From a virus, in the IMG/VR virus record IMGVR_UViG_3300034272_000362, positions 1 through 26,872 of that record: DNA of 26,872 nt; one strand, given 5' to 3'. Each line of letters begins with the position of its first letter. The first letter of the stretch is position 1. The notes below the pieces were generated by a model that was given only the letters and a program-made list of their open reading frames with translations, did no database searches and was not told the DNA's origin. The translations under genes were made by a program, and so were the position numbers. Of this stretch, positions 15,792 to 26,872 are shown in pieces.

Positions 15792-16259
15792 ATGAAAACA
15801 CAACCACATGACTACCTAAAGTTTTGGAGAGTAATAAGATATTACATGAAATCCAAGCATGGTTTAGGTCAGGCTGACCTCGACATGATACTATTTTTAT
15901 ACTCAGAAGGCTATTTTGGAAAGGAAAGGTTCGATGAATTTGCTCAACTTGTAAGTTGGGAACTCGGAAGATTTGAACGACTACGCCACGAAGGGTGGAT
16001 TGAACGCTTCAGAAGGAAAGGTAAGGACGGTAAAGCACTTTATCAACTGAGTTATAAATCCACACGCATGGTATTGGACATCTACAGAAAACTAAATGGG
16101 GAAGAAATCCCCGTTAGCATATCAAGCAACGCAATGTTCCATAAGAATGTCTGCTACAATGACAAGGTTTACCGGAACATGATTCTCCAAATGAACGCCT
16201 ACCAAAGGGCAAACCCCTACCGGACCCCACCCAAGCAAGTCAAAGAAGAGGATGATTAA
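15792..16259 (+). CDS. Winged-helix-like protein on the plus strand within the late block
   Basis: 155 aa. LKFWRVIRYYMKSKHGLGQADLDMILFLYSEGYFGKERFDEFAQLVSWELGRFERLRHEGWIERFRRKGKDGKALYQLSYKSTRMV (about 9-94) reads as a MarR-like winged helix: helices ending in LSxAxLDM-LFLYSEGYF, a recognition helix, then a basic wing RKGKDGKALYQLS. The C-terminus is polar and Pro-rich. It is the only plus-strand gene between 1 and 19112 and converges with GroES (stops overlap by 4 bp). A role in switching late transcription is plausible. Related conserved proteins occur in other Bacteroidetes phages, from memory. Confidence 0.65.
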   Translation: MKTQPHDYLKFWRVIRYYMKSKHGLGQADLDMILFLYSEGYFGKERFDEFAQLVSWELGRFERLRHEGWIERFRRKGKDGKALYQLSYKSTRMVLDIYRKLNGEEIPVSISSNAMFHKNVCYNDKVYRNMILQMNAYQRANPYRTPPKQVKEEDD

Positions 16260-16513: not shown

Positions 16514-16761
16514 ATTCTTTTAAAAATTATTGGTTGATTGTCTGCAATGTATGAGCCTGCTATGTTGTACTCATAAAACTCAATAGCGTCCTCTGCGGTC
16601 ATGTTATCTGTCAGAATTAAGTTATGAATTATTGTGTCCTCGCAATACACAAGCCTCATGTCGTTGCTTACGCCAACAATGGCGTTGTCATGACCATCAA
16701 TCACAATGAACGCCTCATCCGGATATTGCTCAATTATGGTTTGTATCTTAAGATTGCTCAT
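16510..16761 (-). CDS. 83-aa conserved phage protein between GroEL and GroES
   Basis: Contains PDEAFIVIDGHDNAIVGVSNDMRLVYCEDTIIHNLILTDNMTAEDAIEFYEYNIAGSYIADNQPIIF. The MTxEDAIEFYEYNIAGSYI..PIF segment is a family seen across many environmental tailed phages, usually unannotated. It overlaps the GroEL 3' end by 14 bp and the GroES start by 4 bp. Position suggests a link to folding or to transcription timing, but the sequence gives no mechanism. Confidence 0.7.
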   Translation of the reverse strand: MSNLKIQTIIEQYPDEAFIVIDGHDNAIVGVSNDMRLVYCEDTIIHNLILTDNMTAEDAIEFYEYNIAGSYIADNQPIIFKRI

Positions 16762-18361
16762 ACGTTCGTGCCATGGTTATAATTGCGTTAGTACTTAGTA
16801 TCGTTACAGCCACACTCACTGCGTTCTGCAATGCACATCGTGTAACCTTTAACGGGTCAATGACACCCATCTCAATCAAGTCACCCATTACGCCTGTCTT
16901 CAAGTTGTATCCATGACCAACAGGAGTGCTGTCCTTGTACACGTCACTTGGCTTCAGTCCTGCGTTAGCAAGTATTTGTTGGAATGGAGCCATCAATGCG
17001 TTACGAACAATGCTTAATGCAGCATTATACTCTACACTTTTTGTTTCTTCACCCAACTCAGCACTCTCATCAAGCAATGCCTTGCCGGCACCGGGTAATA
17101 TACCCTCCTCCAAGGCTGACCTTACTGCACACACCGCATCGTCAACCCTGTCGTACAACTCTTTTTGCTCCAAGTCAGTCTGACCACCAACAAAGATGAC
17201 ACCAATGCCACCTGTCAATGATGCTATACGCTCCAACAGGAAGTCCTTGTCACCCTTTTTAGTCGCCTCACCATGTGCGTTCCACAACTGCTTGACACGC
17301 TCCTCAACGGCAGCCTCGTCAGACTTTGCTGCACTGCGAATAATGACCGTCTTGTCCTTGCTCACAATGACCTTTGCTGCGTGACCCAAGTCACCATAGT
17401 GCATAATGCTCAAGTCATCACCGGTCTTCTCACTGAAGTAGGTCGCACCCACACTTATCGCTATGTCCTGCATCAACTCATGCTGCTTGTATCCGAAATT
17501 TGGCGGAGGCACAGCTACAACCTTCAAGTTCCCCTTCATGCTGTTCGCTGAAAGCGTGTTCACCACGTTCACATTGCACGGAGAAATTATTAATAGCTTC
17601 TTGCCCTCAGAAATTATTGGCTTCAACACGTTCTCAATCTGTAATATATTCGCTATCTCCATGTCAGCAACCAACACCATCACGTCCTCAAACACACACT
17701 CATCCTTCTTGGTGTCATTAATGAACAACGGACTCAAATACCCCCTGTCAATCTTTAACCCCTTGGTCGTCTCAGCATACGTCTCAGCAGTCTGACTCCG
17801 CTCCACCGTAACAATACCGGTCTTGCCCACATCTTTGTACACCTCAGAAATAATACGCCCTATCTCACGGTCATTGTTAGCCGAGATAGATGCCACATCT
17901 AAGAGCATCGCACTACTAACCTTCTTCGCCTTACGCTTCAGCTTGTCCACCACCTTAGTGCTTATGTCCACCATGTGTCTGAGCACCTCAGTCCTGTTCA
18001 TCTCCTCATTGATGTGCTCAAGTCCTCCCAACACCAAACCCTCTGTCAACACAATAGCCGTAGTCGTACCATCACCTGCCGCAGTGGCAGTCTTGTCTGC
18101 CGCCTCCCTCATCATCTTAACCGCAAGGTTCTCACTCGGGTCAATCAGGTCAATAGCCTTCGCCACCGTTACACCATCCTTAGTCACGGTGATGCCGTGC
18201 GTGTGATGCGGACTCTCAATCAAGACCGTGTTCCCACTTGGACCCAAAGTCGACTTGACAGCCTTTGACATTTTAATAACTCCACTGATTAATTTCTTGC
18301 GTCCTTCGCTTCCGAATTGCAAGTCCTTGGGTGAATACCCAATTCCTGATGTCTCTACCAT
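16748..18361 (-). CDS. groEL: Phage-encoded chaperonin GroEL
   Basis: 537 aa ATP-dependent group I chaperonin. Conserved features: TLGPSGNTVLIE (38-49), KDGVTVAK (61-68, D62 for nucleotide), GDGTTTA (96-102), and the late RVDDAVCAVRSALEEGILPGAG block carrying the catalytic Asp (D398 of E. coli). Length is close to bacterial GroEL (about 545), so it has all three domains. Notable differences are the absent GGM tail (it ends ARTYEQS) and many apical-domain changes. It is led by the non-SD leader AATCAAATG and a TATATTTG -7 element. Presumed clients are phage capsid or fibre proteins. Confidence 0.95.
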   Translation of the reverse strand: MVETSGIGYSPKDLQFGSEGRKKLISGVIKMSKAVKSTLGPSGNTVLIESPHHTHGITVTKDGVTVAKAIDLIDPSENLAVKMMREAADKTATAAGDGTTTAIVLTEGLVLGGLEHINEEMNRTEVLRHMVDISTKVVDKLKRKAKKVSSAMLLDVASISANNDREIGRIISEVYKDVGKTGIVTVERSQTAETYAETTKGLKIDRGYLSPLFINDTKKDECVFEDVMVLVADMEIANILQIENVLKPIISEGKKLLIISPCNVNVVNTLSANSMKGNLKVVAVPPPNFGYKQHELMQDIAISVGATYFSEKTGDDLSIMHYGDLGHAAKVIVSKDKTVIIRSAAKSDEAAVEERVKQLWNAHGEATKKGDKDFLLERIASLTGGIGVIFVGGQTDLEQKELYDRVDDAVCAVRSALEEGILPGAGKALLDESAELGEETKSVEYNAALSIVRNALMAPFQQILANAGLKPSDVYKDSTPVGHGYNLKTGVMGDLIEMGVIDPLKVTRCALQNAVSVAVTILSTNAIITMARTYEQS

Positions 18362-18388
18362 TTGATTAAATTAAATTTTGATGATGTA

Positions 18389-18396
18389 CAAATATA
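18389..18396 (-). promoter_or_regulatory. Candidate -7 element TATATTTG upstream of groEL
   Basis: Minus strand TATATTTG (perfect TAnnTTTG), about 27 bp before the groEL ATG. Two TTTG/TTGAC-like stretches lie upstream, at shorter spacing than the ideal 19-21 bp, so the -33 assignment is weak. The same -7 octamer is used before other genes in this window. Confidence 0.5.
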
Positions 18397-18421
18397 GTCA
18401 AATGTCAACAAAATATATGCC

Positions 18422-18705
18422 ATGTCGATTTTTTCTGAAATAATGTCGATTTTATTTTAAGCAAAAGTGCCCTAACGATACCAACAACAAAGATTATGGT
18501 GTGTTAACACCTACAAATGACGAAATGTCAAAAAATTTTCCCCTATTACTCTATATATATTTCCCTCCTTTTTATTTTTTTTTCCACTACATTTCTTCTT
18601 TTTTTTCGACATTTTCGACATTAAAGAGATAAAGTATTAATAATCAATAAGTTATAAAAATCAAATCGACATAAAATCGACATAAAAACATACTAAAAAT
18701 GTCGA
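18422..18705. repeat. Seven-copy ATGTCGA/TCGACAT array, possible origin or operator region
   Basis: Non-coding, AT-rich. ATGTCGA occurs at 18422 and 18443, TCGACAT at 18606, 18615, 18666 and 18677, and ATGTCGA again at 18699. That gives two clusters in opposite orientation around an AT-rich centre (pyrimidine and TATA runs, 18541-18605). A 10-bp palindrome GTGTTAACAC lies at 18501-18510. Layout fits a replication origin with iterons or a multi-site operator between the late and early blocks. No protein partner is shown by the sequence. Confidence 0.55.
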
Positions 18706-18720
18706 GGATGACATTAACCT

Positions 18721-18736
18721 ATCATAATTTTATGAT
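18721..18736. repeat. AT-rich palindrome ATCATAA-TT-TTATGAT
   Basis: Inverted repeat with 7-bp arms and a 2-bp centre, just beyond the ATGTCGA array. It overlaps the left copy of a second inverted repeat pair (GATTGGTGTAT 18734-18744 / ATACACCAATC 18848-18858). Likely part of the same regulatory region. Confidence 0.45.
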
Positions 18737-18780
18737 TGGTGTATTTTAGATGTATGCATAAATAGTAAAAAACTAATTGC

Positions 18781-18801
18781 ATTGACTGATTTACAGTCAA
18801 T
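18781..18801. repeat. Stem-loop ATTGACTG-ATTTA-CAGTCAAT
   Basis: Perfect 8-bp stem with a 5-nt loop, in the non-coding gap directly beyond the minus-strand terminator. It lacks a following U tract on the plus strand, so is not a plus-strand intrinsic terminator. It may support termination or be a binding site. Confidence 0.5.
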
Positions 18802-18835
18802 AAAAAAAGGGGAGCCTAACTAAAGACACCCCCTT
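18802..18835 (-). terminator. Intrinsic terminator after the 84-aa gene
   Basis: Read on the minus strand: AAGGGG, a 17-nt loop, CCCCTT, then a T run (seven T in total). It lies 23 bp beyond the stop of the gene at 18858-19112. It would isolate that gene from the groEL transcript and from the origin-like array. Confidence 0.6.
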
Positions 18836-18857
18836 CAAAATTGGATGATACACCAAT

Positions 18858-19112
18858 CTACATCTCGTAACCCTCAGTCATCTCTGACCTCATGTTACCC
18901 AACATCACAGCCTCAGCATACATATCAATCTTCTTAGCACGCTTGACTTCACTCTTCAATTGTGCAGCCTGCTGAATGCCGGTCTGCCCATCAGGTCTGT
19001 TGTTAATTAACATACCCTTGTTAACAGTCAACCCAAAGTCAGCACCGCTCTGCTGATAAATACTGTTCGACAAGTCAGCCTTGTAAACAGAGTTTCCAAA
19101 TTTTAACTTCAT
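18858..19112 (-). CDS. 84-aa monocistronic protein, unknown function
   Basis: MKLKFGNSVYKADLSNSIYQQSGADFGLTVNKGM.. then a helical, charged C-terminal half (QQAAQLKSEVKRAKKIDMYAEAVMLGNMRSEMTEGYEM). It has its own -7 element upstream and its own terminator downstream, unusual in this dense phage. That isolation suggests separate, perhaps early or continuous, expression. No domain recognised. Confidence 0.65.
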   Translation of the reverse strand: MKLKFGNSVYKADLSNSIYQQSGADFGLTVNKGMLINNRPDGQTGIQQAAQLKSEVKRAKKIDMYAEAVMLGNMRSEMTEGYEM

Positions 19113-19150
19113 AATGATTTTGTTTTAAAACGTACACGAAATATTTCAGT

Positions 19151-19158
19151 CAAATATA
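19151..19158 (-). promoter_or_regulatory. Candidate -7 element TATATTTG for the 84-aa gene
   Basis: Minus strand TATATTTG, about 38 bp upstream of the ATG at 19112. No ideal -33 was seen. It is one of three perfect TATATTTG boxes in the hub between late and early genes and the dnaA-like gene. Confidence 0.5.
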
Positions 19159-19194
19159 AGCATTAATTACAAGTAGTGTTTGGGCTATATAGCG

Positions 19195-19412
19195 GTTTGG
19201 CGAGCCGAGCCACGAACCGAAAGTCGTTTTTTTCGAGGGGGTGGGGGGTCGGTTTCAATTCGCCCGTTCGGTTTTTTTGGCGTTTTGCTATGCCCGTGCC
19301 CGTGCCCCCGTGCCCGTGACGTGTACACGTGCCCTCTATGCGACCCTTTGCCGTGCATCCGTGACCGCATCCGCTCCCTTTGCCCCAATGTCCGCTCCAT
19401 TTGCCCCCAAAA
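19195..19412. other. GC-rich non-coding island with direct repeats and palindrome
   Basis: In an AT-rich genome this 220-bp stretch is strikingly GC-rich. It holds G runs (19218-19250), iterated CCCGTG units (19291-19317), a perfect 12-bp palindrome ACGTGTACACGT (19319-19330), and a direct repeat CCGCTCC(C/A)TTTGCCCC at 19371-19386 and 19392-19407. Overlapping frames exist on both strands but read as low-complexity Gly/His/Arg or Cys/Pro/Arg sequence and look non-coding. It could be an origin element, a packaging signal or a structured RNA. Confidence 0.5.
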
Positions 19413-19413
19413 C

Positions 19414-19429
19414 GTGTCTTTATAGACAC
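19414..19429. repeat. Palindrome GTGTCT-TTAT-AGACAC
   Basis: First copy of the dispersed hairpin on the early side. It lies at the edge of the GC-rich island, about 220 bp before the first plus-strand gene. No hammerhead core follows it. Confidence 0.85.
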
Positions 19430-19562
19430 AAAGGACACTAAAGAAGAGGGCGTAACCCAATCATTGTCAGATGACCGTTCAAATTTAGTTCAATAAAAAA
19501 TAGTGCCTAACGTATTCAAAACCAAACAAATTGAAAATAATCAATAAAAAGTGAAAAAATAT

Positions 19563-19593
19563 TTTGCAGTTAATAAGAATTGTACTATAATTG
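19563..19593 (+). promoter_or_regulatory. Bacteroidetes-type early promoter
   Basis: A -33 TTTG (19563-19566), 19-bp spacer and -7 TATAATTG (19586-19593, one mismatch to TAnnTTTG). Transcription would begin near 19600, giving a leader of about 50 nt before the ATG at 19652. The leader contains ACGAAAATTGAACAT (19617-19631), repeated before the gene at 26382. This is the best full promoter seen and probably drives the early operon. Confidence 0.6.
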
Positions 19594-19616
19594 TACATGC
19601 AATCGACGAACGGTTG

Positions 19617-19631
19617 ACGAAAATTGAACAT
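19617..19631 (+). repeat. Leader repeat ACGAAAATTGAACAT, copy 1
   Basis: Exact 15-bp match to 26352-26366, in both cases followed by (A)TTAACT and then a start codon about 15-20 bp on. It may be a promoter-downstream or translation-enhancing element. Confidence 0.5.
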
Positions 19632-19651
19632 TTAACTAACAAAACAACACT

Positions 19652-23637: not shown

Positions 23638-24750
23638 ATGTGTATAATAATTATCAAGCAGTCAGGGAAGACAGTTCCTCAGGAGGTTGCAAAGACTTCA
23701 GCACGCATCAATCCGCACGGGTTGGGCATCATTTGGTTGGACACTTTTGAGGTGACCTACCACAAGTCAGCAGATTACAAGCTGTTGGACACGAAGCGTC
23801 CGTTCATTGCACACTTTAGGTTCGCCACGGTTGGTGCTATCAACAAAGAGAACACGCACCCGTTCAGGTGCGGTAACAACAAGCAAGAGTGGCTTATGAT
23901 GAACGGTACTATCAGGGGGTTGGGTAACCACAAGCAAAGTGACTCAAGAGTATTGGCTGAGAACCTTGGACGGATACCACGACACAAGTGGAAGCAAGAG
24001 TTGGAGCGGTACAATTGCAGGTTCGTGACGATTAACACGTACAGCAGGACGTTTCAGATTTATAACAAAGCATCATGGGTGCAGAAGGATGGCGTATGGT
24101 ACAGCAAGGACAATGTGTTGGAGGACAATTTGGTTGCGGTGTATGGCACGTTAAAGAAGGACTACAGCAACTACTACAGCTACCTTACGAGTTCAAAGTA
24201 TATCGGCAAGGGTCAGACCAAAGACAAGTATCCGTTGGTGATTAAGGGTCTACCTTATCTGATTGAGGAGAAGGGCAGAGGTCACAACGTGGAGGTGGAC
24301 GTGTTCAAAGTCAGTGGAACAGTGTTGGCACAGTTGGACAAGTTGGAGGGTCACCCGAATTGGTACAGAAGGAAGCAGATTGAGATTGGCATGGTGGATG
24401 GCAAGGTTCTTAGCTGTTGGATTTACTTCAACCTGAGGGAGCGGTCAGTGGGTGAGGTTCACCACAAGGCGTACACGCAGAACCCGTATCAGTACAGTTG
24501 GTATGAGAAGCAGGACAAGATTGAGACAAGCAGAAGCTACGGGAGGTTCAGTGAGCATGAGTTGAATCTTCTTGAGATATACAAGGATGATGACTGCGAG
24601 GGGTGTGAGTTTGACATTGAGAATGAAAAGCCGATATGTGTCAATTGCTTTCACGACTTGGAGCATGACGAGTTTGCAAACTATCATTGCAGTGGTTGTG
24701 ATGAGTGGTTTGCTGAGTCTGATGTGCTACGGTTTCAGCATTGGGATTAA
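23638..24750 (+). CDS. Class II glutamine amidotransferase + GGCT + zinc-ribbon fusion
   Basis: 370 aa in three parts. First, an Ntn amidotransferase-like domain: Cys2 directly after Met as nucleophile, HFRFATVG (59-66), ENTHPF (71-76) and NG (89-90). It would free ammonia from glutamine or an amide. Second, a gamma-glutamylcyclotransferase-like domain: VAVYGTLKKDYSN (166-178) and LDKLEGHPNWYRR (233-245) with E237 as the likely acid/base. Third, a C-terminal Cys pattern (C320, C323, C334, C337, C351, C354), probably a zinc ribbon for binding a partner or nucleic acid. GAT-II and GGCT domains are known partners of amidoligases, and one is encoded upstream. Confidence 0.8.
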   Translation: MCIIIIKQSGKTVPQEVAKTSARINPHGLGIIWLDTFEVTYHKSADYKLLDTKRPFIAHFRFATVGAINKENTHPFRCGNNKQEWLMMNGTIRGLGNHKQSDSRVLAENLGRIPRHKWKQELERYNCRFVTINTYSRTFQIYNKASWVQKDGVWYSKDNVLEDNLVAVYGTLKKDYSNYYSYLTSSKYIGKGQTKDKYPLVIKGLPYLIEEKGRGHNVEVDVFKVSGTVLAQLDKLEGHPNWYRRKQIEIGMVDGKVLSCWIYFNLRERSVGEVHHKAYTQNPYQYSWYEKQDKIETSRSYGRFSEHELNLLEIYKDDDCEGCEFDIENEKPICVNCFHDLEHDEFANYHCSGCDEWFAESDVLRFQHWD

Positions 24751-26657: not shown

Positions 26658-26872
26658 ATGAAGCACGATGTTTTTAATCAGTACGTGGAGAGGGTCTCTG
26701 ACCTTTTTAGCGTAAGTAGGGACGATATGTTCTCGAAGTCAAAGAGGAGGGAGTGCGTAGATGCGAGGCATTTAGTTTATTACTTGTGCAACAAGAGACC
26801 TATGCAGATTTCATACATACAAAAGTACATGAAAGAAGCAGGCTACGAAATCAAGCATTCCTCAATCATCTA
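26658..26872 (+). CDS. DnaA domain IV-like protein, start only
   Basis: 71 residues visible and open at the window end. MKHDVFNQYVERVSDLFSVSRDDMFSKSKRRECVDARHLVYYLCNKRPMQISYIQKYMKEAGYEIKHSSII matches the DNA-binding C-terminal domain of DnaA: FSVSRDDMFSKSKRRECVDARHLVYYL is the helix and basic loop, and KHSSII stands in for the DHSTV signature. It begins directly with this domain, so lacks the AAA+ part at the N-terminus. It could bind DnaA-type boxes as a replication initiator or a decoy regulating the host. Confidence 0.75.
   Translation, partial: MKHDVFNQYVERVSDLFSVSRDDMFSKSKRRECVDARHLVYYLCNKRPMQISYIQKYMKEAGYEIKHSSII

Follow-up and report, generated by a model that had tools for sequence, protein, structure and literature searches.

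What is an array of short, nearly identical sites doing in the non-coding DNA next to a phage groEL gene? The window, i.e., the whole stretch of 26,872 nucleotides analysed here, is a linear fragment from IMG/VR that ends at position 26872. It contains eight exact copies of ATGTCGA (2.1 expected), seven of which fall in 18422–18705: at 18422 and 18443 on the plus strand, at 18606, 18615, 18666 and 18677 on the minus strand, and at 18699 on the plus strand again. The eighth copy (15880) lies within a coding gene, outside the array. In 5000 local dinucleotide shuffles of 18362–18857, the mean was 0.05 copies and the maximum two, against the seven observed; the array reported in the first-pass annotation is thus real and strongly non-random. 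The two ATGTCAA variants at 18402 and 18525 are further site positions of the array, and the GC content of the region is 27%. Its description as two opposing clusters is roughly right, the orientation being ++/----/+. The features of the locus are as follows.

16748–18361, minus strand: groEL gene (PF00118 and phrog_5725), left neighbour of the array, with its start at 18361
18389–18396, minus strand: Bacteroidetes-type -7 element TATATTTG, leftward promoter of the groEL (late) operon; conserved block TTGACTATATTTGTAC
18402–18449, plus strand: left cluster, ATGTCAA at 18402 and ATGTCGA at 18422 and 18443, 20–21 bp apart
18501–18510, no strand: palindrome GTGTTAACAC, sequence not conserved
18525–18531, plus strand: variant site ATGTCAA, the plus site of the module, ~82 bp before the first pair
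18532–18605, no strand: AT tract rich in pyrimidines, containing CTATATATA as well as T-runs; candidate for the unwinding element, common to modules A and B (see below)
18606–18621, minus strand: first pair TCGACAT-N2-TCGACAT, 9 bp apart
18642–18654, plus strand: IHF-like 13-mer AATCAATAAGTTA in the spacer, matching the IHF consensus WATCAANNNNTTR, candidate bend site
18666–18683, minus strand: second pair TCGACAT-N4-TCGACAT, 11 bp apart
18699–18705, plus strand: right-hand site ATGTCGA
18803–18840, minus strand: terminator-like hairpin with a T-run, serving the leftward gene at 18858–19112, on the outer side of module A
18858–19112, minus strand: leftward gene for a conserved 84-aa protein, separating the array from the early genes
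26658–26872, plus strand: protein consisting of DnaA domain IV only (PF08299), truncated where the window ends; a candidate for a replication protein but not the favoured binder

The surroundings of the array agree only in part with their first description. The array is non-coding, but it is not the only large region of this kind, as no convincing gene occupies most of 19113–19651 either. GroEL does flank it on the left; the right neighbour, however, is transcribed leftward like groEL, which places the divergence of early and late genes ~0.5–1 kb to the right of the array. The 84-aa product of this neighbour has no Pfam or PHROG match and has homologues in distant relatives, and its terminator hairpin gives the strongest fold signal across relatives at that offset.

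The phage encodes both GroEL and GroES. GroEL relatives, which align from residue 1, are encoded on 476 IMG/VR stretches, and the portal and large-terminase genes place Flavobacterium elemo phages and Cellulophaga phages among the relatives. The closest in GenBank is MW202828 ('Podoviridae sp. ctfjg026', 60.85 kb, circular), with 79% identity in the large terminase and 59.5% in GroEL. Several long relatives measure 62–65 kb (full length ~63 kb), and their terminal overlaps of 87–127 bp suggest closed assemblies. Contigs of the group also occur in GTDB MAGs (L255–L265) labelled Aliivibrio, Gammaproteobacteria and even an archaeon, labels that say little about hosts because they are probably binning errors. 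Elsewhere in the window, the gene at 23638–24750 encodes a protein that has a gamma-glutamylcyclotransferase (AIG2-like) domain and also a weak class-II glutamine amidotransferase match. A literature search with little coverage of subscription journals found no paper on these arrays.

The array stands beside groEL in 72 of 80 IMG/VR relatives, if presence is taken as two or more exact ATGTCGA copies in the 900 bp before groEL; among the other eight, L015 and L076 have less than 200 bp of sequence there, and in several the module is present but its sites are variants. The conserved core, termed module A, reads in the orientation of the window as ATGTC[A/G]A, a pyrimidine-rich AT tract of ~75 bp, TCGACAT-N2-TCGACAT, a spacer, and TCGACAT-N4-TCGACAT. 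The plus site precedes the first pair at -82 to -92 in most relatives, and their AT tract contains TATATATA and T-runs. In the measurable non-redundant cases, the spacer from first to second pair is 51 bp in 19, 41 bp in four, 62 bp in two and 52 bp in one; judged by length, 41, 51 and 62 bp are steps of one helical turn. The IHF-consensus 13-mer is found in 30 of 44 A modules against 0.45 expected, an excess that reflects conservation and not independent events because the sequences are related. Beyond the core, the 21-bp spacing of the left cluster recurs in relatives with a varying copy number (none in G004 and G008), and the right-hand plus site is present in G007, G009, G011 and G012 and is ATGTCAA in others. 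We note that in one clade (L064, L066, L040 and related contigs) the second pair of module A is replaced by sites of the CGTCGC-N-ACGTC type, which suggests a shifted binding sequence in part of the module.

The palindrome had been described as part of an AT-rich core. The AT-richness stands and GTGTTAACAC is present, but the palindrome is absent from 15 long relatives, and a hairpin of at least 6 bp occurs at its place in 10 of 43 relatives (2.2 expected), a weak feature; with its sequence not conserved, we rejected the palindrome as the core.

One possible answer to the question is regulatory. The first-pass annotation had offered an operator for a switch between strands, and in this form a phage regulator would bind the ATGTCG sites and turn the primase-helicase operon and the late promoter of groEL on or off. 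A leftward promoter element does lie beside module A in 43 of 43 relatives (consensus TAnnTTTG), and the left site cluster adjoins this late promoter, which counts against an origin of replication. The distance from the element to the first TCGACAT pair, however, varies from 106 to 329 bp, whereas the internal spacings of the module are fixed. In L080 and L083 an extra open frame, with a TAnnTTTG-like element of its own, lies between groEL and module A, which keeps its form despite the intervening gene, a point in favour of an origin. Because of this range and this open frame, neither the promoter nor groEL stands at a constant distance from module A, and a pure operator role becomes less likely with the late promoter at a variable distance. 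In addition, the shared AT tract would not be needed by an operator.

Whole-record searches of the relatives revealed a second cluster of the same motif 10–16 kb to the right of A. This module B aligns with module A over the entire module (with the IHF-like 13-mer mostly in a one-mismatch form) and lies directly before the ATG of the primase-helicase gene in 15 long relatives and in MW202828; the present phage would carry it beyond the window end at 26872, at about 29–30 kb in window numbering to judge by its close relative G020. Module B is on the same strand as A, though the groEL and primase-helicase genes point opposite ways. It follows a terminator-like hairpin, and both A and B have an intrinsic terminator on the outer side, another point in favour of an origin. 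The first pair is near-unique to the two modules within whole relatives. Among 100 IMG/VR loci read for the 18-mer of this pair, 78 are beside groEL, nine beside the primase-helicase gene, two elsewhere in the phage group and 11 without any group gene; the seven of these 11 that were listed look isolated, in unrelated contigs, and the matches outside the group were set aside. The sites, their conservation and base-exact spacing, the gene contexts, and module B in the relatives are all directly visible in these genomes. As far as they tell, the precisely spaced module is common to dozens of related aquatic Bacteroidetes phages, usually twice per genome. The base-exact conserved architecture and the second co-oriented copy before the primase-helicase gene strengthen the reading of module A as an iteron-type phage origin of replication, which we consider likely. 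The replication origin suggested at first is in this respect the best explanation and has gained comparative support.

Module B also bears on the regulatory alternatives. Modules A and B both head operons, and only a few bases separate the second pair of B from the primase-helicase start codon, where an operator would also lie, which we count against the origin. The two modules are nevertheless co-oriented while their downstream genes are not, and TAnnTTTG was not seen upstream of the gene in B, although phage promoters may differ. Module B is absent upstream of the primase-helicase gene in L229 and several relatives on GTDB contigs, which again counts against an origin; L229 without B keeps A. 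On this evidence an operator is kept as a competing explanation or a second function, and as the sole explanation we hold it to be rather unlikely. A further variant, which overlaps the origin reading, is an autoregulated iteron origin whose initiator also represses or activates neighbouring promoters, regulation being the main conserved function and replication secondary. Module B, placed where the candidate initiator gene starts, and the sites near the late promoter at A would suit it; it faces the same counterpoints as the operator, and we judge it improbable.

The way paired sites on the two strands surround an IHF-like sequence also recalls complexes for recombination, packaging or partition, and the two copies, being co-oriented, could recombine. 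No crossover core can be made out, however, and an unsystematic look at the annotation of G006 and MW202828 noticed no integrase or ParA/ParB. The early genes would be lost if A recombined with B, and TerL lies ~15–19 kb from A. A site of this kind in place of replication initiation is therefore the least probable of the explanations considered, and very unlikely.

The arrangement expected of an origin has parallels in known systems. In Bacillus phage SPP1, oriL and oriR lie ~13 kb apart in the circular genome, are alike in organisation, and combine repeats with an AT-rich unwinding element; a proposed role of the second site is fork stalling that sets off concatemer synthesis (PMC6316719). 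The phages studied here likewise have, in relatives, two similarly organised sites per genome, repeats beside an AT-rich tract, one site at the replication genes and one intergenic at the late genes, and an encoded annealing protein and exonuclease. They differ from SPP1 in the repeat, in the host phylum, and in the pairs set in helical register around an IHF-like sequence, and the candidate initiator of the putative origin is a primase-helicase instead of gp38. Initiation proteins of the gp38/gp39/gp40 type were not among the Pfam matches of the scanned early proteins, which are part of the early set. Eight early proteins scanned against Pfam included proteins of replication and recombination but no DNA polymerase, which we count in favour of an origin. 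Satellite phage P4 has two iteron-bearing sites, ori1 and crr, in one genome, served by the alpha primase-helicase, which is thought to have a C-terminal DNA-binding domain. Two iteron-bearing sites and a primase-helicase candidate recur here, whereas the repeat sequence and layout differ, and a PDB sequence search with the whole primase-helicase gave no match to the solved P4 alpha domain. The iteron origin of the PLE satellite also has short repeats in a non-coding region and an initiator encoded by the element (PMC7145576); unlike there, no RepA_N protein was seen here, and the module occurs twice. With bacterial oriC the likeness is the phage-encoded DnaA-domain-IV protein, which lacks the AAA+ domain, and neither A nor B has clustered TTATNCACA.

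Which protein would bind the sites? The first proposal paired the origin with the DnaA-like protein. This protein matches the DnaA domain IV structures 1l8q and 2hcb and has no AAA+ domain. Its recognition helix varies (HSSII, HPPIV, SPPII, HTTIL and MANIQ) in lineages with an identical first pair, and this divergence over unchanged sites makes it improbable that the DnaA-like protein is what binds them. DnaA boxes TTATNCACA were likewise rejected, at zero to four per genome, none in A or B and none clustered. We observed a second small protein in L087–L090 (G006; rotated 18286–18798), annotated 'chromosomal replication initiation protein' in MW202828, which is fast-evolving and has no Pfam match. 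The gene at 15792–16259 is a lone plus-strand gene against the late block, beside groES (phrog_17028, function unknown), and its homologue in MW202828 carries the annotation 'repressor protein'. The 15792 product was rejected as binder because elemo phages encode a homologue (26%) and the 27 kb read from one of them showed no array; this elemo phage also gave no DnaA-IV match, and its primase matched over only 40% of the length.

The gene after module B encodes ~807 residues with BT4734-like_N and, sub-threshold, PriCT_1 and DUF5906, and is read as a primase-helicase. It retains 69–76% identity across the lineages where the DnaA-IV helix changes. The full-length AlphaFold model is poor (pLDDT 40) and usable only near the C-terminus, where a helix-helix-wing is predicted with a pLDDT of about 80–90. 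The better Foldseek matches of this C-terminus are mainly winged-helix proteins, none of them significant (best E 0.2), which counts against the origin reading. In two relatives with altered sites, L257 (AACAT) and L269 (CGACAC), the putative recognition helix SRTKFYKW is SRTRFYRW and SQVRFNKW, respectively, a correlation on very few lineages in which DnaA-IV residues differ too. This correlation points weakly to the C-terminal winged helix of the primase-helicase as a better candidate for initiator and binder than the DnaA-domain-IV protein.

GC skew, named at the outset as a check, neither located nor refuted the origin. The minimum lies mostly 0.7–1.5 kb from groEL (80 bp in G014) and the maximum at 16–24 kb, but these turning points coincide with switches of gene direction, where transcription diverges or converges. 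The skew is therefore non-discriminating, and we rejected it as proof and count the confounding against the origin reading. At four-fold sites, the skew of the opposite-strand late-block gene (15792–16259) is -0.25 (n = 203) and follows location, not coding strand, and the value for the small gene on the right side of A, 0.013 (n = 158), is neutral.

For an origin at module A, we infer protein binding, bending, melting, origin activity and the identity of the initiator along the following lines. A phage-encoded initiator, more likely the primase-helicase, would bind the ATGTCG sites, and the two pairs, in helical register around an IHF- or HU-type bend, would form a nucleoprotein complex. The complex would strain the adjacent pyrimidine-rich AT tract until it melts, and the helicase-primase and host polymerase could then be loaded onto the melted tract. 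Module B, bound by the same protein, may serve as a second origin and/or as a site that stalls forks and mediates autoregulation, in line with the proposal for SPP1 oriL/oriR. The Sak annealing protein and the exonuclease-like protein carried by these phages fit an SPP1-like switch to concatemer synthesis.

At its fullest, and only as a speculative extension, this would describe a widespread, undescribed group of Bacteroidetes phages whose primase-helicase itself binds two origin complexes, co-oriented and in helical phase; B would autoregulate the replication operon and A would head the late chaperonin operon, coupling firing to late transcription. Binding and plasmid replication could both be assayed directly on so compact a module, and the reading makes, if true, a clear prediction on the initiator. 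Uncultured GroEL-encoding phages of Bacteroidetes, a large group with genomes of ~63 kb, would then gain a defined origin that can be tested, and the two-origin organisation of SPP1 would extend to another host phylum.
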